Origin: Thomasclavelia cocleata
GTDB lineage: Bacteria > Bacillota_I > Bacilli_A > Erysipelotrichales > Coprobacillaceae
Direction of reading: 5' to 3'
Assembly (NCBI RefSeq): GCF_900102365.1
Contig: NZ_FOIN01000003.1
Location: 62,001-126,000 of the forward strand
DNA length: 64,000 nucleotides
In this document: in pieces, positions 45,628-61,323 of the stretch
Position numbering within the stretch: the stretch's first letter is position 1
How the letters are laid out: each line of letters begins with the position of its first letter
Notes under the pieces: generated by a model
Database searches by the model: none
The model's input: only the letters and a program-made list of their open reading frames with translations
What the model was told of the DNA's origin: nothing
Program-made: the position numbers and the translations under genes

Positions 45628-46932
45628 CTATTTCATCAGTATTTTATATATCTTTTTTGTTTCAGGCTCAATTATAATCTTATCAACATTATTTCTAACA
45701 TATTTATACTTTTCTTCGCAGGAGCGCATATCTCCATAACGCTGCTTGTTTATTGTCACCCTATCAATTCCCCTTTTTTTATCTTCCAGTCTGTCTATAG
45801 CTTTATTTATAGGCTTTAACAGCTCAATATAATCTTCATCATTTATAACTGCTTTTAAATATTTATTTTTAATCCTTCTTATTCTCATATTTAGCAGTTT
45901 TAGCTGATAATCAATATTGTTTACAAGCTCAGCTTTCATTTTACTTACACTTACATCAGGCTCTTGTTCAGCGAATACTGTATCTAATTTATTTTCACTT
46001 ATTATAGTATTACATTCAGGACATTTGTAATAATTATATCTTTGTCCAGTTGCAGAAGTTCCATGCGTGTTTATAAAAAACTTCCCACAACTTTTACAGT
46101 ATAATCTCTGATTATATATATACCCCTCACCTGTTTTGCTGTATCTTCTTGTTACTCGCTGTGCTTCATCAAACAAACTGTCTTCTATTATTCGTGGAAC
46201 TATATCCGTATAATCCTTACCCTTGTAATGCAATAAACCAGTATATATTTTATTTTTAAGTATCCGCCTTATATGTGCGTTATCAAAAATTATATTCCTA
46301 CTGTTGGATATTGCGTTCACTGTTATTCTAATATCATCAATAGAATAACCTTTTTTAGCCATTTCAAACATACGTCTAACAATTTTACTATCAGTAGGAT
46401 GAATATATATATTCTTATCTTCACCTCTAAAATATCCAAATGAAACAATACCGCCACAGGGGTATCTTCCACTTTCAGCAATTGACAAAAGTCCATCATT
46501 AGTACGTTCAACAATTCTTTCACGTTCATACTGATTATTTAAAATTTTAATATTTGTTGAAAATCTGTCACTTGCCGTCTTAATTGATGTCTGATCATAG
46601 ATACATTTTAAAGCTGCACCATGATTATTAAACATCCTAAGTAATGAATTGCTGTCAAACATTTCCCTACTTAATCTCGATAAATCATAACATATTACGG
46701 CATACACTTCGTCTTTTTTTATTTTTTCTATAAGTTCTTTTATTTTTGGACGTTCCAGTGATTTTCCGGAATATCCATCATCAATAAAAAATTCAATTTC
46801 ATCAGCATTTTTTACAAGCTCCATCATCAAAGCATGCTTGATAATCATTTCTTTTTGCATATCTACTGATACACCATCATTTTTTTGTTTTAACGTTGAT
46901 ACTCTTACGTATCCTGCAATTATTCTTCCCAT
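45628..46932 (-). CDS. Serine site-specific recombinase
   Basis: An N-terminal resolvase domain starts AGYVRVSTLKQKNDGVSVDMQ with the catalytic serine in RVST. DDGYSGKSLERPKI and CYDLSRLSREMFD complete the active site. A recombinase domain and a zinc ribbon (LYCKSCGKFF with YKCPEC) follow, then a coiled coil and a short tail. At 434 residues it is among the shorter large serine integrases. It is the most likely integrase and excision enzyme of the element and sits at its left end. It follows the terminator of the conjugation genes, so it likely has its own promoter. Confidence 0.92.
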   Translation of the reverse strand: MGRIIAGYVRVSTLKQKNDGVSVDMQKEMIIKHALMMELVKNADEIEFFIDDGYSGKSLERPKIKELIEKIKKDEVYAVICYDLSRLSREMFDSNSLLRMFNNHGAALKCIYDQTSIKTASDRFSTNIKILNNQYERERIVERTNDGLLSIAESGRYPCGGIVSFGYFRGEDKNIYIHPTDSKIVRRMFEMAKKGYSIDDIRITVNAISNSRNIIFDNAHIRRILKNKIYTGLLHYKGKDYTDIVPRIIEDSLFDEAQRVTRRYSKTGEGYIYNQRLYCKSCGKFFINTHGTSATGQRYNYYKCPECNTIISENKLDTVFAEQEPDVSVSKMKAELVNNIDYQLKLLNMRIRRIKNKYLKAVINDEDYIELLKPINKAIDRLEDKKRGIDRVTINKQRYGDMRSCEEKYKYVRNNVDKIIIEPETKKIYKILMK

Positions 46933-47458: not shown

Positions 47459-47476
47459 GATGGAACAAGTTCCATC
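47459..47476 (-). repeat. Intergenic hairpin P9
   Basis: GATGGAACTTGTTCCATC (minus strand). It starts right after the TAG of the primase gene and lies 21 bases before the next ATG. Confidence 0.85.
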
Positions 47477-48520
47477 CTATCTGCCTATTTGTCTGTCAGT
47501 TTTTTTTTCAAAATTAAATTTTCTTGATGATAACTGCTTTAAATCTTCATTCCAGTCTTTTGAAACCGAAAACTCTTTACTAACTTTGACATCTCCAAGC
47601 TCCGCAAGTTCTTTTTCTAATGAGTTTCCTAATTCAATGCCAGCTTTATCATTATCGAAGCAGATAACAACATCACGGCTATATTCTTTAGCTGCATTAA
47701 CAACACACTTATACTTAGAAACACTTCCGCATACTACAAATATATCATTAGAAAGGTCTTTTCCCTGCCGTTTTGCAAGCGTTCGATATGACAGCATATC
47801 AATATACCCTTCAAAAGCATATATCTTAGCTCCTGGAGAAATCCCCGCTGTTTTTGCATTATCTGGAAATACCCTCCAGCCAAGATCGTAGTTGCATCCC
47901 TTAAAATCTCCTTTAAAAGAAGAAATGCTTGAAATTGCCCTTCTGCATATGCAACTGTACAGTCCCATTTCTTTTGAAATGAAGGCAACAGACTTATAAC
48001 CATACATTGTTATTTGAGCTATTTCACCTTTTTTTATCCCATTAAGAACAATATCGGGGTCTATTTTTCTTGTTTGAATCAAATACGCCATCACATTTCG
48101 ATAGGTACTGTCTATTTCAAGCTGATCTTTTAATGTCTGATGACAGGATTTAATTTTTTCAATTCTCTCTTTTGGTGACATATCTTCATATGCCTTTTTT
48201 TTGTTGTCTGTAAGTTCAACTTTAAAATCTGGGTCAATTCTACCCTGGAGAAAATTAACTGCATCCTTGAACGTATGTATTCCCTCTATTTGTGTTTCCA
48301 TAACAAAAGAAATTACGTCTCCACCATGACGTGTTGACTGTCGAAAGAATGAATTTGTAGCTGGATAGATAACAAGAGAACTGAAGTCACCTCCATCATT
48401 TGCACTGCCAACAATTCCAAGATAACCGTTTTTCTTAGTTACTTGAAAATATTCATTTGCCAAATCTACAATACTAACATGATCTTTAATTTCTTTAATC
48501 ATTTTTTTTGATATCGCCAT
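47477..48520 (-). CDS. DUF3991/Toprim primase-like protein
   Basis: The middle has a DUF3991-type stretch (FFRQSTRHGGDVISFV) and the C-terminal half a Toprim fold (KIYAFEGYIDMLSY, then DVVICFDNDKAGIELG). These proteins are typical of Gram-positive conjugative elements and are thought to help DNA processing or second-strand synthesis. There is no full N-terminal CHC2 zinc finger. A GGAGGGA ribosome site precedes the ATG. A hairpin lies before and after the gene. Confidence 0.82.
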   Translation of the reverse strand: MAISKKMIKEIKDHVSIVDLANEYFQVTKKNGYLGIVGSANDGGDFSSLVIYPATNSFFRQSTRHGGDVISFVMETQIEGIHTFKDAVNFLQGRIDPDFKVELTDNKKKAYEDMSPKERIEKIKSCHQTLKDQLEIDSTYRNVMAYLIQTRKIDPDIVLNGIKKGEIAQITMYGYKSVAFISKEMGLYSCICRRAISSISSFKGDFKGCNYDLGWRVFPDNAKTAGISPGAKIYAFEGYIDMLSYRTLAKRQGKDLSNDIFVVCGSVSKYKCVVNAAKEYSRDVVICFDNDKAGIELGNSLEKELAELGDVKVSKEFSVSKDWNEDLKQLSSRKFNFEKKTDRQIGR

Positions 48521-48548
48521 TTTTATCCCTCCACTTCATTAAACTGTC

Positions 48549-48572
48549 AAAGATGGAACAAGTTCCATCTTT
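48549..48572 (-). repeat. Intergenic hairpin P8
   Basis: The core GATGGAACTTGTTCCATC is extended by AAA/TTT arms, giving 10 base pairs. It overlaps the stop codon of the upstream gene and lies 29 bases before the primase-like ATG. Confidence 0.85.
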
Positions 48573-49062
48573 ATAGAGTTCTACTTTTAGTTTTTGTATT
48601 TCCGCTGCTTCTCTGTTTGGCAATCTTTTTTGCTTTCTCCAACCGTTCATTTATAACCTGTTTGTTTTCTTTTCTACGAGACCAGTTAAACAGATTTTCA
48701 AGTTCCTTTGCCGTCACATTCAAACAGTCAATTCTTTCTTCACTGCCGTCTTCTTTTGCACGACCTTTAAACTGAATGTTGTAACTTTCACGATTCAGAT
48801 AAAAATAACGCTTATTATCGTCATTCTTGTCGTGTTTAATCATGTCCCATGGAACGTTCAAGTAAGCCAATCGTTCATTTCGATTGATTCCATGACTGTC
48901 AACTCCAAAATCCGTACCTGTTGGTCGGAAAAGTTCTGATGGCAGCATTACTAGTCTCATTTTTAGTCTTTTGCCTTCTCTATCTTTGTATGTTCGGTGA
49001 TAAGAAGGTTTTTGACTGCACTGCTTATTAGAAAATACGATTGCTAATTTGTTGTTTTCCAT
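48571..49062 (-). CDS. Unknown element protein, about 163 residues
   Basis: A basic protein with many Arg and Lys residues. YLNVPWDMIKHDKNDDNKRY and FNWSRRKENKQVINERL are the stretches one could use to find relatives. The start is best placed at the ATG of MENNKLAIVF, with AAAGGTGG upstream; a GTG four codons earlier lies in that site. The basic tail (AKKIAKQRSSGNTKTKS) suggests nucleic-acid contact. Not recognised. Confidence 0.7.
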   Translation of the reverse strand: MENNKLAIVFSNKQCSQKPSYHRTYKDREGKRLKMRLVMLPSELFRPTGTDFGVDSHGINRNERLAYLNVPWDMIKHDKNDDNKRYFYLNRESYNIQFKGRAKEDGSEERIDCLNVTAKELENLFNWSRRKENKQVINERLEKAKKIAKQRSSGNTKTKSRTL

Positions 49063-49124
49063 ACTGTTTTCCACCTTTTTTCATTACTATTTCTTTTTAT
49101 TTTTTTTATTAATCTTGCGTATGA

Positions 49125-49289
49125 TCATATTTCTATGATTATACACACCGTTATCAGACAAAGCATTTTCCACAAATAATTGCTATCACCAAAATTATTC
49201 TTGATATATCTAACTGCTTCATCAACCCGTAATTCTTTTGTTTGATTGACTAAATCTTCAATCTTCGCAAATAATTTTTCATCAATCAT
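49125..49289 (-). CDS. Small membrane protein, 54 residues
   Basis: The frame from MIDEKLFAKIEDLVNQ ends in a short hydrophobic helix (LWKMLCLITVCIIIEI). A GAGGAG ribosome site precedes this ATG. Upstream in frame the leader hairpin P7 adds a false 'MELVP' start. A small anchored protein of unknown role. Confidence 0.6.
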   Translation of the reverse strand: MIDEKLFAKIEDLVNQTKELRVDEAVRYIKNNFGDSNYLWKMLCLITVCIIIEI

Positions 49290-49312
49290 AACTACACTCC
49301 TCTTGTATAGAC

Positions 49313-49328
49313 ATGGAACAAGTTCCAT
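49313..49328 (-). repeat. Leader hairpin P7
   Basis: ATGGAACTTGTTCCAT (minus strand), 24 bases before the ATG of the 54-residue gene. The stem is six base pairs, with the loop CUUG. Confidence 0.8.
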
Positions 49329-49345
49329 CTGATATTCAGTTCCAA

Positions 49346-49373
49346 CAAAAAAAGACAATCATTCGACTGTCTT
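49346..49373 (-). terminator. Terminator in the leader between hairpins P6 and P7
   Basis: AAGACA pairs with TGTCTT around an inner TC/GA, and TTTTTT follows on the minus strand. It is flanked by two copies of the GGAACTTGTTCC hairpin, so it may be controlled. Confidence 0.7.
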
Positions 49374-49393
49374 AAATTATTTAATTTTTTGAC

Positions 49394-49405
49394 GGAACAA
49401 GTTCC
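49394..49405 (-). repeat. Leader hairpin P6
   Basis: The GGAACTTGTTCC core with outer AT and GT that pair only in minus-strand RNA (one U-G pair). It lies about 20 bases past a likely transcription start. Confidence 0.75.
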
Positions 49406-49434
49406 ATGCCCTCTAAAATTATCTATATGATAAC

Positions 49435-49440
49435 ATTATA
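49435..49440 (-). promoter_or_regulatory. Putative internal promoter (-10)
   Basis: TATAAT on the minus strand, followed by hairpin P6, a terminator and hairpin P7. The -35 element is unclear. ACAC..GTGT repeats lie just upstream. Confidence 0.5.
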
Positions 49441-49471
49441 ACACGTATTTTGTGTAAAAATGTCCCCACTT

Positions 49472-50215
49472 TTATCTTTGCCTGATTCTCATTTTTGGTT
49501 TTGTTTTATGCAAATTTCTATAGGCATTATTATTTCTCATAATACGGTTTTTTATATATACATTATCATCAAATCGTGAAGAATACTGCTTAACCATTTC
49601 ATCATGAAAATTTGGTTTTATCCAGTGTTCACGACAGCTCGTTTCAAAACGATAAACAAGGTCTTCAATATCTATATCTGAAATATCATTGATATTTTTT
49701 TCCAGAAGCCCGTCATGATCTATATCTGTCCCTCTATCAAGGACAGCTAATGTATAAGACATATAAACTATATCTGCTGGAGAATAATATTGAAACTGCT
49801 CAAAATCTTTTGGATCAGCAAGCAGGCAGTATAACCAAAGATCCTCATGCTTTACATTTTCCATAATAAAATCAAGATACCATTCTTCTGCTTCTTTTTC
49901 CGCTTTTTTTAACATCTCAAGATATTCCTGTTCCTGCTTTTCTTTTTTTGCTTTCTCTGCAAGTATTCTTTTATACCTAGTTATATCCAGTTCTATCAGA
50001 TACAGTATCTGAAGAAACAGATTTTTATTTAGTGTCTTATCTTTAGCTATATTAAATTCATACTTTGGTTTCAAATCATTTTTGAAACGATATAACGATA
50101 CTTTTAAGATTTTGTCATCAGAATGCAGGAACGCATTATATCGTTTTTGAGCATAATTATAGCTATAGCATTTTTCATTTCCCACAACCAGCATATAACA
50201 GTGACTTTTATTCAA
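49472..50215 (-). CDS. Unknown element protein, about 247 residues
   Basis: A coiled-coil-like stretch (KRILAEKAKKEKQEQEYLEM) splits the protein in two. The C-terminal half has YYSPADIVYMSYTLAV and many acidic residues. It reads directly after the surface protein gene. A TTG start at 50215 fits the GGGGTGAT site; a GTG three codons earlier is part of it. I do not recognise it. Position next to VirB4 and the hydrolase suggests a transfer role. Confidence 0.65.
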   Translation of the reverse strand: MNKSHCYMLVVGNEKCYSYNYAQKRYNAFLHSDDKILKVSLYRFKNDLKPKYEFNIAKDKTLNKNLFLQILYLIELDITRYKRILAEKAKKEKQEQEYLEMLKKAEKEAEEWYLDFIMENVKHEDLWLYCLLADPKDFEQFQYYSPADIVYMSYTLAVLDRGTDIDHDGLLEKNINDISDIDIEDLVYRFETSCREHWIKPNFHDEMVKQYSSRFDDNVYIKNRIMRNNNAYRNLHKTKPKMRIRQR

Positions 50216-50238
50216 ATAAATCACCCCTTATCTCCATG

Positions 50239-50829
50239 TTACTTTTTTACATATATATAATAAACAGCAAGTATAATAATACCAATGCCAGCAACAACTG
50301 GTACAGCCGAAGTCCAGATGGAACTAGTTCCATCTCCCACCGCTACATCTTTCTTAGCGTTTTCAGCCTGCTGTTCAATTTCTTTGACATTACTAGGTTT
50401 TTCTTCTGCATATTTATGTGGTTCTTCAACTGTATCTTCTTCCAGTTCTACCCAGCCTTCAGGTCTGCTGACTTTTATATTAAAATCATAACGTGAATGT
50501 CTTTCATCAACCATAAAAGCCTCCTGGTCATATGTATATACCCATTGACTGGAATTGCTGTCATATACACGTATACAATAAGAACCATCTTCAACGAAGA
50601 AAGTCCATTCATTACCAACCTCGGCAATTTTCCAAGTTTCATCAATATATTTACCGTTTTTTTTAAATTCAGCCCCTGTTAAACAAACTTTTAAAGCACT
50701 GTCAAATCCCGCCTCAGATGTATCTACATGAAATTTTAATACACCTACATTCACTGCATTTACAGGCTCAATGCGTGCAAAGCATAACATAGCTATCAAT
50801 AAGCTAAGACTAAAAACAATTTTTTTCAT
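50239..50829 (-). CDS. Small surface protein with C-terminal helix
   Basis: A signal peptide (ends VNA) is followed by a beta-rich domain of about 110 residues with two cysteines. An acidic stalk (ELEEDTVEEPHKYAEE) and one C-terminal helix (AVPVVAGIGIIILAVYYIY) follow. There is no LPxTG motif, so it is held by the helix. The codons for GDGTSSI near the helix contain hairpin P5. It follows the cell-wall hydrolase, as mating-surface proteins often do. Confidence 0.7.
   Translation of the reverse strand: MKKIVFSLSLLIAMLCFARIEPVNAVNVGVLKFHVDTSEAGFDSALKVCLTGAEFKKNGKYIDETWKIAEVGNEWTFFVEDGSYCIRVYDSNSSQWVYTYDQEAFMVDERHSRYDFNIKVSRPEGWVELEEDTVEEPHKYAEEKPSNVKEIEQQAENAKKDVAVGDGTSSIWTSAVPVVAGIGIIILAVYYIYVKK
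50316..50335 (-). repeat. Hairpin P5, inside a coding sequence
   Basis: AGATGGAACTAGTTCCATCT, an exact 20-base palindrome and identical to P2 at 56989-57008. It encodes part of the surface protein and lies about 100 bases before the next gene's start. Confidence 0.85.
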
Positions 50830-50852
50830 TTACATATCTCCTCGTATTTTGC

Positions 50853-50874
50853 AGGATGGAACAAGTTCCATCCT
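50853..50874 (-). repeat. Intergenic hairpin P4
   Basis: The core GATGGAACTTGTTCCATC with an AG/CT extension. It overlaps the stop codon of the hydrolase and lies 24 bases before the surface protein's ATG. Confidence 0.85.
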
Positions 50875-51994
50875 AATATTTTTTTCCAGCAACAAGTGAT
50901 CCGTCAACATATTCAAAATGCATATAATCTTTGATGTTTTTATAATCACCGCCCCAGTAGAAGCCGTATTTTTTCCATATGCCAACTATCTCACCATCTA
51001 TTTTATAATATGACGGTGCATTATTCCATACAGAACTGCTCGTTCCTTTAATTCCTTTAACATAAGGATTAAATGCAGGATTAATGTCTACAGCAAAACC
51101 AAAAGAATGATTAGACATTGTTTGAGTTGTTCCGGTCATTACCCTCCAGTTGAAGCATCCATTATCATACGCCCTGAAACCTTTTGCCTTCATTTCTCTA
51201 TAAGCGTTCTGGATAGAACTAGCAAGTTTTTTATGACATGTAAGTGAAACCTGTTTTGCTTTACCGTTTTTATCTAAAATTTCAACAGATATCGTAGTGA
51301 GATATTTTCTACATTCATTTTCCGAACTAGGGACACCATTTGGAAACAGCCATCTAACACGTTCATTTTTAGTTCCCGTATTTGCAGGCTCACCGCTAGA
51401 ATCTCCGCCAGTACCAAAAGTACGATTTTTTACCTGCTCCAGTTCCTCATTTGTCAGATTGTCAAACATTGTGAGGTTATAGCTCTCGATATGATTTTTA
51501 ATCTTATTAGTATATCTGCTTCCTTCACAGTATCCTCCATTTGCGAGTGCAATTAATACTTCAGTATAATCCTGAACACCCTTGCAGTGATATTTTTCAC
51601 TAATAAGCTTAGAATACGCTTCGACGCTTTCTTTTCTGGAGTTAAACTTTTGCCACTTTCCAGAAGAAGTGACATAGCTTCCAGCAGTTCCAGTTCCCTT
51701 AATTCCAAACAGATTATTTGCATTTTTGGCAATGGAACTAGTTCCCCAGCCAGATTCTTCTATTGCCTGTGCAAGAGTTACTGAGGTAAGTATCTGATAA
51801 GCACTTTTATACTCATAACTGTATTCAGTTACAGACATAATAAACTCATACTGTTCAGCAGTTAGATTTTCAATGTTGGAAATTCCATTTCCTGTATTAC
51901 TGTCTTCACTATCACCAGAAATCGCAGCAATTATGATCAGCGGTACAAGAAAAAACATAATTATCTTTACTGCATACTTTCTATATTTTGACAT
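50873..51994 (-). CDS. Two-domain cell-wall hydrolase (glucosaminidase plus M15 peptidase)
   Basis: This is the VirB1-type enzyme that opens the cell wall for the mating channel. One membrane helix (IIMFFLVPLIIIAAIS) is followed by a GH73 glucosaminidase domain (residues about 45-180) with AIEESGWGTSSIAKN. The second domain (about 230-370) is an M15 D,D- or L,D-carboxypeptidase with SNHSFGFAVDIN and MHFEYV as zinc motifs. A usual Gram-positive relative has an NlpC/P60 second domain instead. It starts two bases after virB4. Confidence 0.9.
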   Translation of the reverse strand: MSKYRKYAVKIIMFFLVPLIIIAAISGDSEDSNTGNGISNIENLTAEQYEFIMSVTEYSYEYKSAYQILTSVTLAQAIEESGWGTSSIAKNANNLFGIKGTGTAGSYVTSSGKWQKFNSRKESVEAYSKLISEKYHCKGVQDYTEVLIALANGGYCEGSRYTNKIKNHIESYNLTMFDNLTNEELEQVKNRTFGTGGDSSGEPANTGTKNERVRWLFPNGVPSSENECRKYLTTISVEILDKNGKAKQVSLTCHKKLASSIQNAYREMKAKGFRAYDNGCFNWRVMTGTTQTMSNHSFGFAVDINPAFNPYVKGIKGTSSSVWNNAPSYYKIDGEIVGIWKKYGFYWGGDYKNIKDYMHFEYVDGSLVAGKKY

Positions 51995-51995
51995 A

Positions 51996-53816
51996 CTACT
52001 CCATCATTTTGAACATATCGTCAGTAACCTGAATCTGGATAGGAATCCTTTTGTTTCCAGCAATCAGTACTGCCTCACCCATCTTAAACCTGTCAATAAG
52101 TGATGCTTCACCTTCGGTAAGTGTAGTCAGTTTCGTAAGATCGCTAATTCCGTCCCGTTCAAGGTTCATAATAAGTTTATATGTACTAGAATTGAAGATA
52201 GCTTTTCCACTTGTCAATACTTTATCGTCAGCAAAGTCATGTACTTCCTGTGTAGCCAAGATCGTTGCATTATTATACTTTCTTGAACGTCTTACAAACT
52301 GTTCAAGCATTTTAGCTGTTTCACCAACAAGAATAAGAAGATGCGCTTCATCAACGCAAAAAACTGAAAATACCGATTCATCTAGACATAAACTCCAGCT
52401 GAATTGAAGAATTATATGCATTAAGGCATTTCTTAAACCTTCAGTAAGGTTAAAAAAGACCTTCGTTCCAAATCCAATAAATGGATTTGCCGTTTCTGAA
52501 ACATTTATAGTCGTCTTACCATCAAAATAAATGGCATATTCGTTGATAAGTGGCTTGATTTTTAAAGACAAATCTTTATATGCTCGATATTCATCATCAA
52601 ATATTTCTGCACTTTCCATCTTTTCAATGTGTTCCTGCAATACGGCATTGAAATTTGTGAAAGTCGGATATTTTTCATACCCCAAATATCTAAAATTAGT
52701 ATCGTTGTCAATTCCAACACTTTCGTAAGTCTTGACTGCTATATCTCCTATAACCGCAAGCGTTTCATCACGGATCTGGGGACTAAGATATTTTAAAATA
52801 ATTTTAATGTCTTCCACAACATTGTATATAGCTAGTTTAGTGTTATATTTTTCAACTACATCTTCTTCATCGGAAGAAATAGGTTTTAAATCAAATATAT
52901 TGATTCTAGCTTTTGAAGTTCCCATATTAAAAAAAGAACCACTTGCTCTTTCTATAAGCGGTTTTATCTTATTTTCTGGATCAATCCAGATAATTTTTCT
53001 TTTATAAAGCATGTGCTGCATCATAATCGAATTTAGTGCAGTAGTTTTACCAGAACCTGATTTTCCTACTGCAATCAAATTCCCGTTAAGACGGTTCTGC
53101 TCAACTGCTATGTTTCTATCATTAACATAAACAAACTGATCAAACATAATTTTTCCGCCATTGTACTGTTCATTTCCTATTAACAATCCTTTTGGATCAT
53201 CTAAGGTATCAAATGTAAACGGGTACAAAGAAGCCAGATTCAATGATGGTAACAGTACTCCAAGATTGCGTTTCATTTCACTGTTAAAACCGTCCTTATA
53301 AAACCATACTGATGTTCTTTTATAAAGTTTTTCCTGTATACCAATCAATGACTGTAACTGCCATCCCATCACACTCAACTGCATCTTCAATTTTTGATAT
53401 TCTTCATTAAGTTCACTTACACTATCGGCAATGATCATTACATTAATAACGACATTATATGTTTTATCCCTTCTCGCAACTAGATGAGCAACCATGTTGT
53501 TTAGCGCTGTCACATCCTGAGATATTTTCTCTCTTTTAGTAACATCAACTGTTTCACGATATTCTCGCTCCATTTTATTTACCTGATTTTTTATCAGATT
53601 TGGGATGTTCTCACTTGATGGTTCACACATCATATCGACTTTAATATTTGGATTTGAAGTCAATACGGAAAGAATCCCAGCATAATATTCTTTGGGTGTA
53701 TTCAAAACAGTAACTATTTTGACATACTTATCCCCCATCTGGATATAATTTCTATTAAATGATAGCCCTTTGGGTGCAACCTTTGATTTAAAACTACGTT
53801 TTAATAAAGAACTCAT
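51996..53816 (-). CDS. VirB4-like conjugation ATPase (ATPase half)
   Basis: This ATPase powers the type IV secretion channel. Walker A is GKSGSGKTTA and Walker B is VFCVDEAHLL. NNATILATQEVHDF is a further motif of the family. A start at the ATG overlapping the previous gene's stop (ATGA) gives MSSLLKRSF. The N-terminal part matches the usual VirB4 N-terminal region only in part; the first 225 residues seem to be in the gene before it. Length 606. Confidence 0.92.
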   Translation of the reverse strand: MSSLLKRSFKSKVAPKGLSFNRNYIQMGDKYVKIVTVLNTPKEYYAGILSVLTSNPNIKVDMMCEPSSENIPNLIKNQVNKMEREYRETVDVTKREKISQDVTALNNMVAHLVARRDKTYNVVINVMIIADSVSELNEEYQKLKMQLSVMGWQLQSLIGIQEKLYKRTSVWFYKDGFNSEMKRNLGVLLPSLNLASLYPFTFDTLDDPKGLLIGNEQYNGGKIMFDQFVYVNDRNIAVEQNRLNGNLIAVGKSGSGKTTALNSIMMQHMLYKRKIIWIDPENKIKPLIERASGSFFNMGTSKARINIFDLKPISSDEEDVVEKYNTKLAIYNVVEDIKIILKYLSPQIRDETLAVIGDIAVKTYESVGIDNDTNFRYLGYEKYPTFTNFNAVLQEHIEKMESAEIFDDEYRAYKDLSLKIKPLINEYAIYFDGKTTINVSETANPFIGFGTKVFFNLTEGLRNALMHIILQFSWSLCLDESVFSVFCVDEAHLLILVGETAKMLEQFVRRSRKYNNATILATQEVHDFADDKVLTSGKAIFNSSTYKLIMNLERDGISDLTKLTTLTEGEASLIDRFKMGEAVLIAGNKRIPIQIQVTDDMFKMME

Positions 53817-54490
53817 TTTTTCTCCTCCAATCCGATCTTGCCATCCTTTAATTCAAATCTTTCAATTTCTTTTAAAACCGAGAAATAATATTCATCAATT
53901 ACCGGATTGTCAAAATCATAAGCAATCATATTTCTAAAATCATCATTTGTCATAGGCGATATCATTAAGCGAGTTTCAGACATAAAACGTTTCAGATCAC
54001 TGTATACTTTGTCTATCATTTTTTCATTTTCCATTACAACTAAATAGAATGAAATTTCTTTAAAGTTATTAATATACCATTCATGATAGTTTAAAAACAT
54101 ATCTCCAAGATTAAGTATTGACTTATCTTCTTCGTTTTTTAGTCTCTGCATTAAATTATGATTTTGTTCATCCAGATTTGGCTGCTGATAGACAAACTTC
54201 CAGTAAAATTTGAAATCAATTTTATTAAAAGCAATTGCAAGTGATTCGATTACTCTGTAATTGTCGTCAACATTAAGCATATGAATATTTAGCGGATGTA
54301 TTTTAATACCTCTTACAATATATTTAGTACCAGAATCATCGATAATACATTCATTGTGTTCAATACTTTCAACATCAAGCCAATTAAGCGTTGTAGCTAA
54401 TTTTTTTGCTCTCTTTTTTACACTCTTTTTCTCTTTCTTAATGCTTTTCAAGTCATTCTTCTTTATTTCTTTCGTCTTTTTCTTCATCAT
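53813..54490 (-). CDS. VirB4 N-terminal-like protein, separate gene
   Basis: A Lys-rich start is followed by a domain (VRGIKIHPLNIHMLNVDD, ISFYLVVMENEKMIDKVY) of the kind that precedes VirB4 ATPase domains. Length 225. It overlaps the ATPase gene by four bases (ATGA) and the PrgI-like gene by 38, so the three are coupled. The idea that VirB4 is split is inference. Confidence 0.6.
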   Translation of the reverse strand: MMKKKTKEIKKNDLKSIKKEKKSVKKRAKKLATTLNWLDVESIEHNECIIDDSGTKYIVRGIKIHPLNIHMLNVDDNYRVIESLAIAFNKIDFKFYWKFVYQQPNLDEQNHNLMQRLKNEEDKSILNLGDMFLNYHEWYINNFKEISFYLVVMENEKMIDKVYSDLKRFMSETRLMISPMTNDDFRNMIAYDFDNPVIDEYYFSVLKEIERFELKDGKIGLEEKK

Positions 54491-54803
54491 AATTTACTAT
54501 CCCCTCAAATACATAATCTTTGTTTGAAACAAAGTAATCCAAATATTCAATCAAAAAAACCATGATATTGTGGTATACTGAATAATTCGTTGTTAGTATC
54601 CAGCACAATCCGCCAATAAATACAAAAATAATAATCCCAACAATTAGCGCTGTTCCAGATAAGTTGTTAAAACAGATAATACAGCCAACAATCATTAAAA
54701 CAGTACCACTGGCAATAATGATCAGATCACTAATTCGATACATTCCAAAAATAAGTCTACCGCCTTTAAAATTAGACGGTGCTATATATCTATGTTCATC
54801 CAT
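54453..54803 (-). CDS. PrgI/TcpE-like membrane protein (VirB3-type position)
   Basis: Two close helices (LIIIASGTVLMIVGCIICF and ALIVGIIIFVFIGGLCWIL) and a short N-terminal segment IAPSNFKGGRLIFGMYRI fit small PrgI/TcpE proteins that lie before VirB4 in Gram-positive conjugation clusters. The ATG at 54803 (MDEHRY) follows AGGAGG. A longer start would read through hairpin P3 as 'MELVPSF'. Confidence 0.75.
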   Translation of the reverse strand: MDEHRYIAPSNFKGGRLIFGMYRISDLIIIASGTVLMIVGCIICFNNLSGTALIVGIIIFVFIGGLCWILTTNYSVYHNIMVFLIEYLDYFVSNKDYVFEGIVNYDEEKDERNKEE

Positions 54804-54822
54804 AGATTTGCCTCCTAACATA

Positions 54823-54846
54823 AAAGATGGAACAAGTTCCATCTTT
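54823..54846 (-). repeat. Intergenic hairpin P3
   Basis: Core GATGGAACTTGTTCCATC extended by AA/TT pairs. It is six bases past the stop codon of the VirB6-like gene and 19 bases before the ATG of the PrgI-like gene. Confidence 0.85.
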
Positions 54847-54852
54847 GATTAA

Positions 54853-56961
54853 TTACCATCTTCCTCTATGGCGCATGGTACTTCCTATAGTTGTTTTTCC
54901 AACATTTTGAAAAGCAGCCGCTTTAGAATTTAAAAAGTTTCCAACTCCAGAATTTTGACGATTACGCTTATCTACATTCTTTGTATTCATCATAGATGCC
55001 CGATTAACCGCAACCGCATCAATACCGCTCATACCACCAGCACGATTAAATTTGACGGCATCACCTCCAGCGTTCACAACTGCACTGCCAAGCTGTGAAC
55101 GTGACATCGTATTAGCGTTATCAATTCCAAGCGAATTGGCATAGCTGATTTGACTGCTTGTCGGCGGTATGCCATTGTCACCTGACAGCATAGAAAATAC
55201 CGCTGAACTTCCACCCGCATCAGTTACTGCACTGTTTAGTTCCTGAGCTGTCATCCCAGCACCGTTTATACCAAATGAATTAGCATAATCAAGCTGTGAT
55301 CCTGTAGGGGCAGTATCATTCATTCCCATAGCTTCAAACGCTCCTAAAGAGCCACCTGCTACCTCAACAGCCGAAGCCATTTCACCACGAGTCATACTGG
55401 CACCATCAATTCCTAGAGAACTGGCATAATTCTGCTGATCACTGTTCGGGGCTAAGTCACTCATACTTGAATCACTCATACCGCCAAAGCCATCTGCACC
55501 GCCAGCTGCAGGATTTCCTTTACCACTGCCAAAAACGTTACTAGCCATATTTTTTAAACCAATACCTTGACCAACACCAGCTTTGCTTGAAATTTTTCCT
55601 GCTGCTGAAAATCCCTTACCAGCAAGTCCCAATGCTCCACCAGCTGCAAGTATACCAGCTCCTGCTGTTACAGCTGTCATTCCAGCTCCAAAAGCCATCA
55701 TGCTCTGCATTTGCTGTAACGTACTTGCACTGGACATCTCACTACCACCTATAATTGCAGCAACACCGCTTGGAGATTTATATACAGCAAGCAATCCGCC
55801 GAGTAATATAAAAATCTTAGCAACTGTTCCTACAACAGTAGTAGACTTTAGAAAACTATCTAAAGTTGAGCTTCCAATAAAGCCAAACAAAAGCATCATC
55901 ATATACAGCTGTAGCCAATTAGAGATTAGATCAGCTGTAATATATTTACACCATGTCGAATATGTATTGCTCTCTGGATCAAGAAGACTTGATATTGCAT
56001 ATGGTGCTAAAAAGACTTTAAAAACAAGCGATATTTGTCTTTCTGCCATCATTAATAATACTGGTATGAATACTAGCGCAACTGCAATAACTGTAGCCAC
56101 ACCAAAAAATAAACTGCTCCAGCTTGGATACATGTAGTAGACTTTATCAACCGCACCTGCTAAGCCAAATGTTACAGTATCAGCAATTTTTTCTAATATG
56201 TTTCCTTTTTCTTCACCAGCATTTATGTCAATGTCATTAATATCACCGCTAAACCAGTAACTCTTATAAAATGTTGATTCTAAAGCTGCATTCATTTTCT
56301 TTACATATGAGTTATATACTTTATTTATCTGACTAGAGGATAAATCAGCTCCAGCAATGTTTTTTATTGAGTTTTCGGTTTCAGTGATTTTATCAGCTGA
56401 CCAATATCTAACCATTGATTTGAAAGTGTCTTTAGACATAACAAACATATCTTTTGCCTGCTCCATCTGCGAAGACAGATAATCTTTCATTGTGCTTGCG
56501 TTGCTATTCATATTACTACTATTCAAATCAATTGAAGAACTATCCACAAGCAATGTAGACAGTTTTTTACTGTCATACATTTTTGTATCATCCGTGAAAT
56601 ACTCAACATTGTTAACCAGCGAACTTACTAACCCTGTAGCCTGTTTCATAGCAAAAGGAACAGCAGATATAATTATTACTGTAACTGCCATCTTGATAAT
56701 CATTTTTCCTGGATCAAGCTTATTCATGTATTCATCATCAGTAAAAGCTTTAAAAACTATTTTTAAAAGCCTAAAGACAATAAAAAGCACTAGAAATAAT
56801 TCAATGTATATAAACCAGTTCCATATCCAGTCAAAACCATCATTAGAAAAATCAAGTCCGCATATCAGTTTTGCTGCTTCCCACAAAATATCAATGACGT
56901 TTAAAATCATTTGCATAAGTCCCCAGATTATGCTTCTTATTAATTCAGCAATATCTAACAT
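54853..56961 (-). CDS. VirB6/TrbL-like channel protein with C-terminal repeats
   Basis: About seven helices (IELFLVLFIVFRLLKIVF, MAVTVIIISAVPFAM, LFFGVATVIAVALVFIPV, and others) in the first 460 residues suit a VirB6-type membrane channel. The C-terminal tail (about 500-640) holds three copies of a 47-residue repeat with pattern Q..YA.SLGI....M....L.SAV..AGG. The tail end is basic (MRHRGRW). Length 702. Confidence 0.8.
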   Translation of the reverse strand: MLDIAELIRSIIWGLMQMILNVIDILWEAAKLICGLDFSNDGFDWIWNWFIYIELFLVLFIVFRLLKIVFKAFTDDEYMNKLDPGKMIIKMAVTVIIISAVPFAMKQATGLVSSLVNNVEYFTDDTKMYDSKKLSTLLVDSSSIDLNSSNMNSNASTMKDYLSSQMEQAKDMFVMSKDTFKSMVRYWSADKITETENSIKNIAGADLSSSQINKVYNSYVKKMNAALESTFYKSYWFSGDINDIDINAGEEKGNILEKIADTVTFGLAGAVDKVYYMYPSWSSLFFGVATVIAVALVFIPVLLMMAERQISLVFKVFLAPYAISSLLDPESNTYSTWCKYITADLISNWLQLYMMMLLFGFIGSSTLDSFLKSTTVVGTVAKIFILLGGLLAVYKSPSGVAAIIGGSEMSSASTLQQMQSMMAFGAGMTAVTAGAGILAAGGALGLAGKGFSAAGKISSKAGVGQGIGLKNMASNVFGSGKGNPAAGGADGFGGMSDSSMSDLAPNSDQQNYASSLGIDGASMTRGEMASAVEVAGGSLGAFEAMGMNDTAPTGSQLDYANSFGINGAGMTAQELNSAVTDAGGSSAVFSMLSGDNGIPPTSSQISYANSLGIDNANTMSRSQLGSAVVNAGGDAVKFNRAGGMSGIDAVAVNRASMMNTKNVDKRNRQNSGVGNFLNSKAAAFQNVGKTTIGSTMRHRGRW

Positions 56962-56988
56962 TTCATCACCACCTTTTTGAACTTAAAA

Positions 56989-57008
56989 AGATGGAACTAG
57001 TTCCATCT
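56989..57008 (-). repeat. Intergenic hairpin P2
   Basis: AGATGGAACTAGTTCCATCT, a perfect 20-base palindrome. It lies directly past the TAG of the VirB2-like gene and 27 bases before the VirB6-like ATG. Confidence 0.85.
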
Positions 57009-57374
57009 CTAATTTGCCTGACTTAACCCAAAAACTTTGAAAATCTCAACAAGGGATTCAATAATAATTACAATTATTACCCCTCTTTTAATATTACCCC
57101 AAACATTAATTCTTTGACGTTCTTCCTCAGTTGCCTGTAAATATGTAAGTCCAATTCGACCAACATAAATAATTCCTAACCCGACCGCTGCCCACTGTAC
57201 GATTAAAATACCAGCCTTGATCCAAGGATTAAGCAAATTTTTTGCTTCATCCGTATTAGGCGTTGCAACAGCTGATACAGATACAATATTTTGCAGTCCA
57301 ATATAGCCTGAAATCAACAACGCTTCTAACTGATCTTTCTTTTTTAATACAAATCTTTTTATTTTATTAATCAT
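57009..57374 (-). CDS. VirB2-like pilin/TrbC-type protein
   Basis: A 121-residue protein with an N-terminal signal-like part and two hydrophobic helices (AGILIVQWAAVGLGIIYVG and RGVIIVIIIESLVEIFKVF). A short loop with TYLQATEEERQRINVWGN lies between. That is the VirB2/TrbC layout. Its position before virB6 supports this. No sequence match is certain. Confidence 0.6.
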   Translation of the reverse strand: MINKIKRFVLKKKDQLEALLISGYIGLQNIVSVSAVATPNTDEAKNLLNPWIKAGILIVQWAAVGLGIIYVGRIGLTYLQATEEERQRINVWGNIKRGVIIVIIIESLVEIFKVFGLSQAN

Positions 57375-57725
57375 TTATCGTTCCTCCATATTAATTTTTT
57401 CAGCGTTAATATCAATTCTTGGTGCAGTTTTAAAAAACTGAAATGTATCTACAACTACAACAGTTTTCTTCTTTTCTTCATATTCCTCAGTTTTTAAATG
57501 ACCTTCAACTTCGCAAAAAAGTCCATCCTCAACATACTGAACGAATCTTTTAGCATTTTTTCCCCATGCCTTGCATGTGATCCAGTCAGTATACTCATTA
57601 CCGTTAGAATATTTTGTTACTGCTATATCAAAGAAACAGCACACACTATCAGTTTCCTGATTTCCATAAAGCTGTTTATTTACTTTGCCTAAACGTCCGC
57701 TTAAAAAAACTCTATTCATTGACAT
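57375..57725 (-). CDS. ssb: Single-stranded DNA-binding protein
   Basis: An OB fold reading NRVFLSGRLGKVNKQLYGN, then DIAVTKYSNGNEYTDWITCK and VEGHLKTEEY, fits SSB. At about 116 residues it lacks the long acidic tip of the host SSB. The ATG at 57725 (MSMNRVF) has GGAGG upstream; a longer start would include hairpin P1 as 'MELVPPF'. In the transfer cluster it likely protects the incoming strand. Confidence 0.88.
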   Translation of the reverse strand: MSMNRVFLSGRLGKVNKQLYGNQETDSVCCFFDIAVTKYSNGNEYTDWITCKAWGKNAKRFVQYVEDGLFCEVEGHLKTEEYEEKKKTVVVVDTFQFFKTAPRIDINAEKINMEER

Positions 57726-57751
57726 GATGTAATTCCTCCATATATATAAAT

Positions 57752-57779
57752 TAAAAGGTGGAACAAGTTCCACCTTTTA
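57752..57779 (-). repeat. Intergenic hairpin P1
   Basis: The longest copy. The core GGTGGAACTTGTTCCACC is extended by AAAA/TTTT and one more pair, 12 base pairs in all. It carries G-C where other copies have A-U, a compensated change. Confidence 0.85.
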
Positions 57780-57813: not shown

Positions 57814-58713
57814 TTAATTTTCACTTTTTCTTTTCTTAAATACAGCAAGTCCGATAAGTACAAAAGATAAACCGCCTAAACAACAGTACATTGCAATATC
57901 AGTGTTATCTCCTGTTTTTACCTTTTTAGGCAACAGTTCATCATACATGATTACTTCTTGAATTTTGCCTGTTTCTTCAACCTTAAATTGAATTGATTGA
58001 GCTATCTTGTATCCTTTTGGTGCAATCGTTTCTGTAAGTCGATATACATGATTTGCATACAGAGTTTTCATCATATGAGGAACATCTGTAGAAATCCATT
58101 CTTCTACTGGCACGGTTTTACCAGTAGTGATATCTTCAAGACTTAAATGCGCTCCAGGCAACTCTTTTGAAGTAGTTATATCCTGTTTAGATACCGATAC
58201 CTTAAAAGGGGTATGTTTAGGAATAACTGTAACATCAAAATTCATTGAATTCTGAACATCTTCATCATATGTTGGAATACTAATTAAAGTTGGTTCAACA
58301 TATTCATATTCATTGTAATCAGTTACTCTTAATAAATAGATACCTACCTTTAATTCTTTAAAAACAATTTTACCAGTATTATCGGTTATATCTGATATAC
58401 CAGTAATTTTATTTTCATTTGCAATTTTATTTAATCTGATTGCTAGTTCTTCCATTTCGTCAGCTTTTTCAACTTTATTTAAATCAGTTTTTTCATCTGA
58501 GAAATCTTCTGTATATTCATACAGTCCGTCAACAACATTTCCAACTTGAATTAATTCAAATTTAACACCTTCTGTTGATGTGCCAGCGACACCGTCTTCT
58601 AGTGCAACTGTTATCGATCCAATTTCGCTATATGCATCTACTGTACTTACAGTACTTATAATTCCAACTGTACTTAATAATGTAACAGCGAAAACCATAA
58701 ATTTTTTGATCAT
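57814..58713 (-). CDS. Pilin, probable base subunit, VKTGD-anchored
   Basis: A signal peptide (ends DAYS) is followed by a SpaA/Cna-B-like region with E-box IYLLRVTDYN and YRLTETIAPKGY. The C-terminus is a sorting signal PKKVKTGDNTD, a helix and KKRKSEN. VKTGD replaces LPxTG, as in the chromosomal sialidase, while the other pilins of this locus use LPATG. This suggests a minor pilin used to anchor the fibre via the housekeeping sortase. Overlaps the sortase gene by four bases. Confidence 0.82.
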   Translation of the reverse strand: MIKKFMVFAVTLLSTVGIISTVSTVDAYSEIGSITVALEDGVAGTSTEGVKFELIQVGNVVDGLYEYTEDFSDEKTDLNKVEKADEMEELAIRLNKIANENKITGISDITDNTGKIVFKELKVGIYLLRVTDYNEYEYVEPTLISIPTYDEDVQNSMNFDVTVIPKHTPFKVSVSKQDITTSKELPGAHLSLEDITTGKTVPVEEWISTDVPHMMKTLYANHVYRLTETIAPKGYKIAQSIQFKVEETGKIQEVIMYDELLPKKVKTGDNTDIAMYCCLGGLSFVLIGLAVFKKRKSEN

Positions 58714-59507
58714 TTTTTTGCTCCTTTCTTTCTGAAAATTATAATTCCTAAAACAACAAATAATAACGGTATTGTATAAATGATAAGTTCGTGCGAGGAT
58801 GGCAGACTCTTTCTTATTGCATCTTTTACACCCTGATCATATTGAATACGATGACCTGTTACCAGCAGTCTATGTGTGTTAATACCATAAGGAGTACATG
58901 TTACAAGGGTTGCAAGGTCTTTACCATCTTCAATTGTATAGTCTGCTTTTTCAGGCAATACTATTTCAATTTTATCTATTTCATATGCAAGAACTTCATC
59001 AAGTATATAAATATAAAATTTATCATTTTTTTCTAATTCATCCAGCCTTGTAAATAATTTATTTGATGGCAGACCGCTGTGCCCAGTTATAACTGTATGA
59101 GTATTATTACCACCTAAAGGTAAAGAGGAATCTTCCACATGACCAGCACCAGTATTTAAAACACTATCACTAGTACCATGATAAACTGGAATATTTACAT
59201 CTATTTGAGGTATTTCAATTGTTCCAATCACACCATTACCGATATCTAAAACATCTTCATAACTAGTATTATTTTCAACAGCTATTCCTCTTTGCTGTAA
59301 ATACAGGTTATTATTCCATTCTTTTGCCTCTTCCAGCATTTTTTCTTTTTGATTTTCAGTTAATATAGTAACTTTATTATCATAAGTAGAAATTAGCTTA
59401 GAAGTATCAATAGATTTAAAATAATTAGAAACAATAGGGTAGCATATTAAAGCTAATCCTATTGTAAAAATAAAAATATCTTTTCTAAGAAGTTTTTTTA
59501 ATTTCAT
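58710..59507 (-). CDS. Class C sortase
   Basis: A pilus-type transpeptidase. The catalytic His lies in HTVITGHSGL, the Cys in LATLVTCTPYG and the Arg in HRLLVTGHR. Two membrane helices (N-terminal and C-terminal IIYTIPLLFVVLGIIIF) are the class C pattern. It overlaps the base pilin gene and lies directly after the main pilin gene. Confidence 0.94.
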   Translation of the reverse strand: MKLKKLLRKDIFIFTIGLALICYPIVSNYFKSIDTSKLISTYDNKVTILTENQKEKMLEEAKEWNNNLYLQQRGIAVENNTSYEDVLDIGNGVIGTIEIPQIDVNIPVYHGTSDSVLNTGAGHVEDSSLPLGGNNTHTVITGHSGLPSNKLFTRLDELEKNDKFYIYILDEVLAYEIDKIEIVLPEKADYTIEDGKDLATLVTCTPYGINTHRLLVTGHRIQYDQGVKDAIRKSLPSSHELIIYTIPLLFVVLGIIIFRKKGAKK

Positions 59508-61321
59508 TATTTTTCAGCTTCTTTTTTTCTTTTAATTAAAGCAGTTAACATCATTGCAGTACCTGTACCAGCTAGCATTACTGTCATTGCAGAACCAGTA
59601 GCTGGCAACTTTGAACCAACCTTATTTACAACCTTAATATTTAATGAACCTTTTTCTAAATCAGTAGTTAGATTATTTACATACTCACTGTATTCACCTG
59701 TATAGAATTCTTTAAACTGAGCAGTTGCTTCTAATTTCTGTAATGTCTTATTAGTTGCACCGTCACCTTTAGTATAGTTCACACGGTTATCTTCACTGTA
59801 TGTAGCTTTGATATTAATTTTAATTGGATCTTTTAATAATCTGTACCCAGCAGGGGCTTTGGTTTCCTTTAAGTAATATGTCTGACTATCAAGTCCAACG
59901 ATATTAAATAACCCATCAGCATCAGAAACCATTTCTACCGCTTCAGCTGGCACTTCACCATCTGTAACACTGTCTCTGTTGATTACTATATAATCATCTC
60001 CATTATCTGCCTTTTTTACATAAACTTCTTTTGTGCATAAGCTGTCGCTATACAATCTAAATTTAGCACCTTCTAATGGTCTTTCTGGTGTCTGATCATT
60101 TACCTTTACTCCATCCATTCTAAATGTAAAGCAAACTACTGTATCCCAAGGTGTTTCACCAGTTTGCCCAATACCATCAGAATCAGGATTATTAGAATAT
60201 TCTAATTTGACATCATTTTCAAAACCTGGTCTACCAACATCATCTGTCGCTTTTTCATTTAATGTTGCATTGTATTCTATTAAAATTTCTTGTCCATAAT
60301 ATTTCTCCATTTCAGGATTAGCACCTTCATATTCCTTAAAGAAATATTTATTTATAGTTGCTTTCAAATCCATAATTTGGATTTGAAAAGTTTCATCAAC
60401 TGGTATACCTGTTGTTACAACTTTATAATCGGTATCTTTAACTAATGTTTTATCAGCAATCTTTACAGTAACAGAATCAGAATTGAATGTTAATTCTTCA
60501 TCCATCTTATCATGAAGCGCAAAATAATAACTATCATATCCATTCATATTTGGTGCATATGTTAAATAGCGGTAAGGAACAGTTTGTCCGATTTCGAAAT
60601 CAGCAACATCATTCCATCCATCATGATCTTTTCCAATACTTGTTCTTAAATCATCTTCTCTGATCTGTTTTTGGATAACAGGAAAATCTGATTTAATATT
60701 GATAAATACGTTTGGATTTGCAGTATTGACCATACATAAAGATGATGCACTGTGTTCTCCAGCTACATTAGTAATTTCATCTATGACATACCATCCAAAT
60801 GGTACATCTAATGTATAACTTTCTTTTGCAGATGCAGGAACTGTTACAACCTGTGTCGGCTCTGCTTTATCTGCAACAAGCATATTTCTTAAACTTTCGA
60901 TAAAATATCTAAAATTAGAATATCGACTTTCATTTAACTGCGGTGCTTCTACATTATTGATTACTGTATTATTATTCATTGTTTGAATGTAGTCAATTAT
61001 GCTGTACTCAGTATTTTTTCCAGTTACTTTCTTTAAAGATTTTTCATATGCAGGATTCATTGTATAATTGATACTTTCCATTCCTACTGAATTTTCAGCA
61101 TCAAAGATGCGGTAAACATTAAATTTCTTTCCTGCTAAAGACTGTACTTCGCCATTATCCCCAATGTTTGCATTGATAGTAATGCAACCTTGTTCTTTAG
61201 CACTTACAGAAGTAATTAAATTACTATTTGGAGCAACTAAAGTAGCAGTTGCTAATGCTCCAGAAAAAGCTGTTGATACAGCTAACAATCCAACAATTGA
61301 TTTTTTTATTTTATTATTCAT
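59507..61321 (-). CDS. Major pilin with isopeptide domains, LPATG-anchored
   Basis: A signal peptide (ends near VSAKE, residue 42) precedes a SpaA-type pilin with E-box YYLKETKAPAGY and an N-terminal domain with KKFNVYRIF. It ends SKLPATGSAM, a helix and KRKKEAEK. At 604 residues it suits a backbone subunit, polymerised by the sortase next to it. The start overlaps by one base nothing else; gene and sortase share the ATGA-like junction at 59507. Confidence 0.88.
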   Translation of the reverse strand: MNNKIKKSIVGLLAVSTAFSGALATATLVAPNSNLITSVSAKEQGCITINANIGDNGEVQSLAGKKFNVYRIFDAENSVGMESINYTMNPAYEKSLKKVTGKNTEYSIIDYIQTMNNNTVINNVEAPQLNESRYSNFRYFIESLRNMLVADKAEPTQVVTVPASAKESYTLDVPFGWYVIDEITNVAGEHSASSLCMVNTANPNVFINIKSDFPVIQKQIREDDLRTSIGKDHDGWNDVADFEIGQTVPYRYLTYAPNMNGYDSYYFALHDKMDEELTFNSDSVTVKIADKTLVKDTDYKVVTTGIPVDETFQIQIMDLKATINKYFFKEYEGANPEMEKYYGQEILIEYNATLNEKATDDVGRPGFENDVKLEYSNNPDSDGIGQTGETPWDTVVCFTFRMDGVKVNDQTPERPLEGAKFRLYSDSLCTKEVYVKKADNGDDYIVINRDSVTDGEVPAEAVEMVSDADGLFNIVGLDSQTYYLKETKAPAGYRLLKDPIKINIKATYSEDNRVNYTKGDGATNKTLQKLEATAQFKEFYTGEYSEYVNNLTTDLEKGSLNIKVVNKVGSKLPATGSAMTVMLAGTGTAMMLTALIKRKKEAEK

Positions 61322-61323
61322 TT

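Follow-up and report, generated by a model that had tools for sequence, protein, structure and literature searches.

Dispersed palindromes of a Thomasclavelia cocleata integrative and conjugative element as candidate parS/O_B-type sites of an element-encoded ParB-like protein

What reads a short palindrome that recurs between, and within, the genes of an integrative and conjugative element (ICE) of Thomasclavelia cocleata? The stretch analysed, here termed the window, comprises 64,000 nucleotides of contig NZ_FOIN01000003.1 (G000:C57:62001-126000, C57 being the contig code used for coordinates beyond the window). Comparison of sequences from this and related elements indicates, with a probability of roughly 0.8, that the palindromes are dispersed 16-bp binding sites of the parS/O_B type for an ICE-encoded protein of the ParB/Noc/KorB family; that the ICE ParB-like protein binds them appears very likely.

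The core GGAACWWGTTCC has 10 matches in the window, versus 0.27 expected from shuffles (shuffle maximum, 3). A pattern search of the 2.96-Mb genome gave 26 exact cores, every one of them in the ICE, within C57:109462-149750, and none elsewhere; a control search with the reversed pattern gave no match genome-wide. When up to 2 mismatches to ATGGAACNNGTTCCAT are permitted, 32 sites are obtained, with the 16-bp form ATGGAAC-WW-GTTCCAT. Those in the window are as follows.

47460..47475, parS-like site ATGGAACAAGTTCCAT, intergenic, 21 bases 5' of the next start
48553..48568, parS-like site, intergenic, 32 bases 5' of the next start, 2 past a stop
49313..49328, parS-like site, leader region, 23 bases 5' of the next start
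49392..49407, parS-like site with 1 mismatch, about 25-30 bp 3' of a TATAAT promoter-like sequence
50318..50333, parS-like site, within gene 50239-50829, translated DGTSSI
50856..50871, parS-like site, intergenic, 26 bases 5' of the next start, 1 past a stop
51732..51747, parS-like site with 2 outer mismatches, within the glucosaminidase gene, translated WGTSSI
54827..54842, parS-like site, intergenic, 23 bases 5' of the next start, 10 past a stop
56991..57006, parS-like site, intergenic, 29 bases 5' of the next start, 2 past a stop
57758..57773, parS-like site with a paired change in both arms (GGTGGAAC..GTTCCACC), 5' of ssb

All nine copies located in a preliminary description of this DNA hold, a tenth exact core, at 51734-51745 in the glucosaminidase gene, having been overlooked; it was also confirmed that neither the pilus genes nor the chromosomal part has a copy. 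The placement before gene starts reported there stands for seven of the ten window copies, which, with the 16-bp core as reference, lie 21-32 bases 5' of a start codon, five of them 1-10 bases past a stop codon; it does not describe the full set, 10 of the 32 sites being within annotated open reading frames. The assignment to one transfer transcript is too narrow, as the sites span the whole element. That many intergenic copies stand just 5' of starts is probably due in part to the shortness of the intergenic gaps. The mean distance between successive sites is 1.4 kb (median, 0.9 kb), and no regular spacing was found, the gaps being random-looking (coefficient of variation about 1). The TATAAT promoter-like sequence near 49392..49407 is also found elsewhere in the ICE. 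In the host family the 16-bp form occurs in one other genome alone (G012, 2 copies), and in a collection scan three viral contigs gave one chance-like match each.

Related elements were compared at 36 loci around ParB-like genes, together with loci around VirB4 genes, in related genomes. The corresponding genes of the T. cocleata ICE, with that for ParA, are given below.

51996..53816, minus strand, VirB4-like ATPase, the query for finding related ICEs
C57:132043-132948, outside the window, ParA
C57:145419-146129, outside the window, ParB-like gene 1 (ParB1)
C57:149549-150418, outside the window, ParB-like gene 2 (ParB2)

A de novo count that presupposes no motif (perfect inverted repeats, half-site 6, spacer 0-7) found in most of the 36 ParB loci one over-represented palindrome of their own, which neither the shuffles nor the chromosomal controls had; the best log10 p values of the controls in this survey were -6.6 for shuffles and -4.0 for chromosomal loci. 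ICEs located through VirB4 gave the same outcome. Many ICEs thus have their own dispersed palindrome of 13-19 bp, in up to 24 copies, examples of which (by genome, with half-site and spacer length) are listed here.

G279, TGGCAA-1-TTGCCA, 24 sites
G193, TGAGCAA-2, 22 sites
G057, one ICE, TGGGGCAA-1, 16 sites
G057, another ICE, GGGGGCG-3, 12 sites
G315, GGCATGA-1, 24 sites over two contigs
G031, CCCGTCA-4, 12 sites
G066, TTGGTAT-5, 11 sites
G066, elsewhere, AGGACA-2, 9 sites
G018, TGTAGCAA-2, 10 sites

Co-resident ICEs differ in their palindromes, i.e. TGGGGCAA versus GGGGGCG in G057, TTGGTAT versus AGGACA in G066, and ATGGCAA versus TTGACA in G029, and the factor that reads them is therefore likely to be encoded by the element itself. 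At three loci (L079, L071 and L088, from G053, G196 and G197) the palindrome is often flanked by AAC..GTAG, with a Shine-Dalgarno-like run immediately following; this asymmetry goes beyond the palindrome itself. A Lactococcus garvieae plasmid encoding a ParB-domain protein has no comparable dispersed palindrome in 50 kb; its repeats are found only at IS1216 copies, apart from a short AATCAC-type repeat near ParA genes.

The similarity of the palindromes between elements follows that of the helix-turn-helix (HTH) of the encoded ParB-like proteins (Mantel r = 0.50, p = 1e-4, 29 elements). With near duplicates removed, the correlation with the HTH is 0.47 (p = 1e-4, 25 elements), versus 0.12 (p = 0.09) with the N-terminal part of ParB and 0.09 (p = 0.21, 18 elements) with VirB4. 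In a partial test on the full set, r is 0.50 (p = 2e-4) for the HTH given VirB4, and -0.13 for VirB4 given the HTH. Individual pairings have the same form, e.g. three ICEs of G057, with ParBs that are 90-100% identical, have one common palindrome, and a fourth, with a ParB about 32% identical, has another. Further pairings were found after the pattern had been noticed: in G315, where ParB and VirB4 are on separate contigs, both contigs have the one palindrome; TGAGCAA sites, i.e. the G193 palindrome, surround a G188 ParB whose HTH is G193-like; and a second G188 ParB, with a G197-like HTH, adjoins an ATGGCAA-3 site, i.e. the G197 palindrome.

The two ParB-like proteins of the T. cocleata ICE, of 236 and 289 residues, are 62% identical over 185 residues. 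The GxRRxxA and NxxR motifs bind nucleotide in ParB-type proteins; in an alignment of 20 diverse ParB-like homologues G76, R79, A82 and N118 are invariant, R121 is present in at least 90%, and an HTH segment, KRDWIGxxxGxSGRTVQxYL, is conserved. The N-terminal ParB/Srx-like CTP-binding domain (PF02195) was found in 16 of the 20 members, with no match to ICE ParB1 itself at E 0.1. The family profile matches Noc (7ol9, E = 5e-14; TIGR04285), which is its best match, and Spo0J; the NCBIfam models for Noc and ParB match 14 and 13 of the 20 members, respectively. The 70% identical homologue in G016, as modelled by AlphaFold2 from five sequences (mean predicted local distance difference test score, pLDDT, 80), resembles ParB, Noc and KorB structures, with Z 14 to ParB N-domains, and with Z 13.0 (root-mean-square deviation 3.7) over 145 residues spanning the N-domain and DNA-binding domain of KorB. 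At the C terminus, where ParB-type proteins have a dimerisation domain, two helices are predicted (block pLDDT 46-78), and ParB_C of Pfam matches 2 of the 20. In 27 of the 36 loci ParB has a ParA gene no more than 1 kb away. No close relative of the ICE ParB was found in the plasmids or phages searched; Paraclostridium sordellii plasmids carry a ParB relative. A genome scan with a ParB alignment returned only 5 loci, apparently all from genomes already known by whole-genome search; the alignment of the 20 members proved too diverse for degenerate scans.

A regulator's operator was among the options raised in the preliminary description, and it fits. A rival to ParB as the protein concerned would be a different ICE-encoded repressor acting on transcription only, ParB being merely linked to it. 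The operator-like symmetry of the palindrome, and the copies about 25-30 bp 3' of TATAAT in three copies of one promoter-like sequence, would suit such a repressor. However, the motif is tracked better by the ParB HTH than by the ParB N-domain or VirB4, and the sites within genes, and between genes of an operon, exceed what a promoter repressor needs, so this explanation is unlikely. Two operators of known type were considered and rejected: the Cheo box, the LexA operator, has the spacing GAAC-N4-GTTC, as opposed to a spacer of 2 (GAAC-WW-GTTC) in all 26 cores, and a stoperator of the mycobacteriophage L5 type was ruled out, the site being symmetric with mixed orientation of its centre.

The palindromes might alternatively act in mRNA, as hairpins that govern, for each gene downstream, its translation, processing or antitermination. 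The arms are able to form a stem, the start-proximal position of most window copies is as such a role would have it, TT is the favoured gene-strand centre of intergenic copies in the T. cocleata ICE, and a terminator-like hairpin lies 3' of the site in three to four leader copies. However, the in-gene copies are distant from any start codon. Nine of the ten sites within open reading frames are in one frame (eight encoding GTSS and one GTNS) in proteins that are otherwise unrelated, which argues for a constraint at the DNA level that the coding sequence accommodates; the tenth, C57:132026, may precede the true start. The centre on the gene strand may be TT, TA or AA, and in most of the odd-length palindromes of other elements the central base is mixed (in G057b A equals T, and in G279 A, T and G occur), with skews in G315, G066a and G197. 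Single mismatches on the gene strand show no clear preference for G.U pairs (19, versus 14 A.C pairs), and the arms covary, as with GGTGGAAC..GTTCCACC at 57758. Together the in-gene sites, the untied centre, the types of mismatch and the paired arm changes point to a symmetric site in double-stranded DNA, not an RNA hairpin. The RNA functions first proposed for the repeat (processing, translation control and antitermination) are accordingly not borne out, the more so as the palindrome changes with the HTH of the element-encoded ParB-like protein, and not with VirB4, across ICEs; the hairpin explanation is quite improbable.

A selfish small palindromic repeat of the REP/RPE kind, spreading within the element, would likewise be short and present in genes too, but it is very improbable given that the palindrome is confined to the ICE, differs in sequence between ICEs while tracking the ParB HTH, and, in the in-gene site of ParB2, aligns (by eye) with a site-free linker of G016 without change of length.

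Several observations weigh against ParB-like proteins as the readers of these palindromes. The Mantel tests leave some shared ancestry in, and some motifs derive from few sites (G188b, 1; G244, 2; G014b, 3). The closest ParB relatives (70% and 58% identical), on two contigs of G016, were found with neither this palindrome nor another, on sequence totalling only 17 kb and matching a site-poor region of the T. cocleata ICE. Further, G152 has a ParB with no palindrome found in the stretch read, and G092 has a palindrome with no ParB of this type found. In the T. cocleata ICE ParB is duplicated and apart from ParA, which is about 12.5 kb from ParB1, so the reader could be either copy. The crowding of seven intergenic window sites 5' of start codons would be equally in keeping with a role in translation.

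By analogy with ParB, Noc and KorB, a dimer of the ICE ParB would read both arms of the palindrome through its HTH, then take up CTP, close as a clamp and slide off the site. As the sites average 1.4 kb apart, sliding clamps could reach, and those loaded at dispersed sites could cover, most of the ICE. The likely outcomes would be repression or silencing of transfer genes and ParA-dependent maintenance of the excised ICE; there may also be a role during or after transfer. The nearest working model for the ICE sites would be RK2 KorB, a CTP clamp of the ParB family that has a ParA as its partner (PMC11790492). Loaded at 16-bp O_B sites dispersed over the element, KorB can slide as far as 1.5 kb and silences genes for both replication and transfer (PMC11790492); the title of a reference in that paper gives 12 operators. 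The RK2/RP4 KorB-O_B system (with IncC as ParA) and the ICE have in common the ParB-family protein, the ParA partner, the conjugative element and the dispersed 16-bp sites, and, on this analogy, a KorB-like regulatory plus partition role is somewhat favoured. They differ in that the ICEs are chromosomal and from Firmicutes, in the unrelated sequences of their sites, and in the number of the latter, up to about 30 per 40-45 kb in the ICE, many of them in genes.

Noc of Bacillus and Staphylococcus, the best profile match, has many binding sites, which like those of the ICE are dispersed and palindromic; by contrast, Noc sites occur across the host chromosome, whereas ICE sites are confined to the mobile element and differ by element. 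ParB-parS (Spo0J) systems share the fold, the GxRRxxA and NxxR residues, a palindrome of about 16 bp and, for most of the loci compared, a ParA neighbour, but parS sites usually number only a few and lie in a cluster, whereas those of the ICE are dispersed throughout the element. The stoperators of mycobacteriophage L5, about two dozen repressor sites, are similarly scattered over a single mobile element, but are asymmetric, oriented with transcription and read by an unrelated repressor.

A wider proposal, which can be put forward only tentatively, is that ICEs of this class mark their full length with a private address code, such that their own ParB clamp would coat, silence or compact exactly its element, and that the code diverges so that co-resident ICEs avoid cross-talk.

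The ICE that carries the sites is about 45 kb long, has almost all its genes on the minus strand and continues past the window as far as about C57:152400 (about 90400 in window coordinates). It has a serine recombinase gene at one end and further encodes a MobL relaxase, VirB4, a topoisomerase, SSB, a primase-like protein, a glucosaminidase/peptidase and a sortase-pilin block.

45628..46932, minus strand, serine recombinase (Resolvase/Recombinase by Pfam) at the left end of the element

The sortase and LPxTG-type pilin/adhesin block (57814-63933) is inside the ICE and palindrome-free, and looks like cargo acquired later. Near-identical leader modules occur at 49342-49480 in the window and at C57:127200-127300, 139320-139360 and 139586; each has the palindrome, then AAAATTAAATAA, then a terminator-like hairpin, AAGACAGTC-GAAT-GATTGTCTTTTT, two share an upstream promoter-like sequence, TGTTATAAT, and they could be attenuators of transfer operons. 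Two similar proteins are encoded outside the window, at C57:131457-132062 and 146369-146980; one, PemK-like by a weak Pfam match, adjoins ParB1, and the other is encoded directly 3' of ParA, the place of ParB in most related elements. Repeated DNA 5' of the genes at C57:144246 and 146369 gives an identical, probably spurious, N terminus, VICDKKQGSTSLHLAF. A large chromosomal sialidase-like gene (38665-42861) is close to the recombinase end of the ICE.

The protein fold is already known, as are ParB-family operators scattered over a conjugative replicon (KorB). No description was found, in partial coverage of a literature in which earlier work may exist, of ICEs from Firmicutes bearing a dispersed parS-like code that is element-specific and tracks the ParB HTH, and nothing was found on Tn1549 with ParB. 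ICEs of gut Firmicutes are major carriers of accessory genes, and their regulation and maintenance are poorly known. A decodable ParB site would enable the extent of an ICE to be mapped, fragmented contigs to be paired, co-resident ICEs to be distinguished and the target of a ParB to be predicted from its HTH. The elements compared also provide about two dozen natural pairs of ParB and site that differ in specificity, which could help in considering how ParB specificity and spreading evolve. Overall, the results suggest that KorB-like control may extend beyond proteobacterial plasmids.
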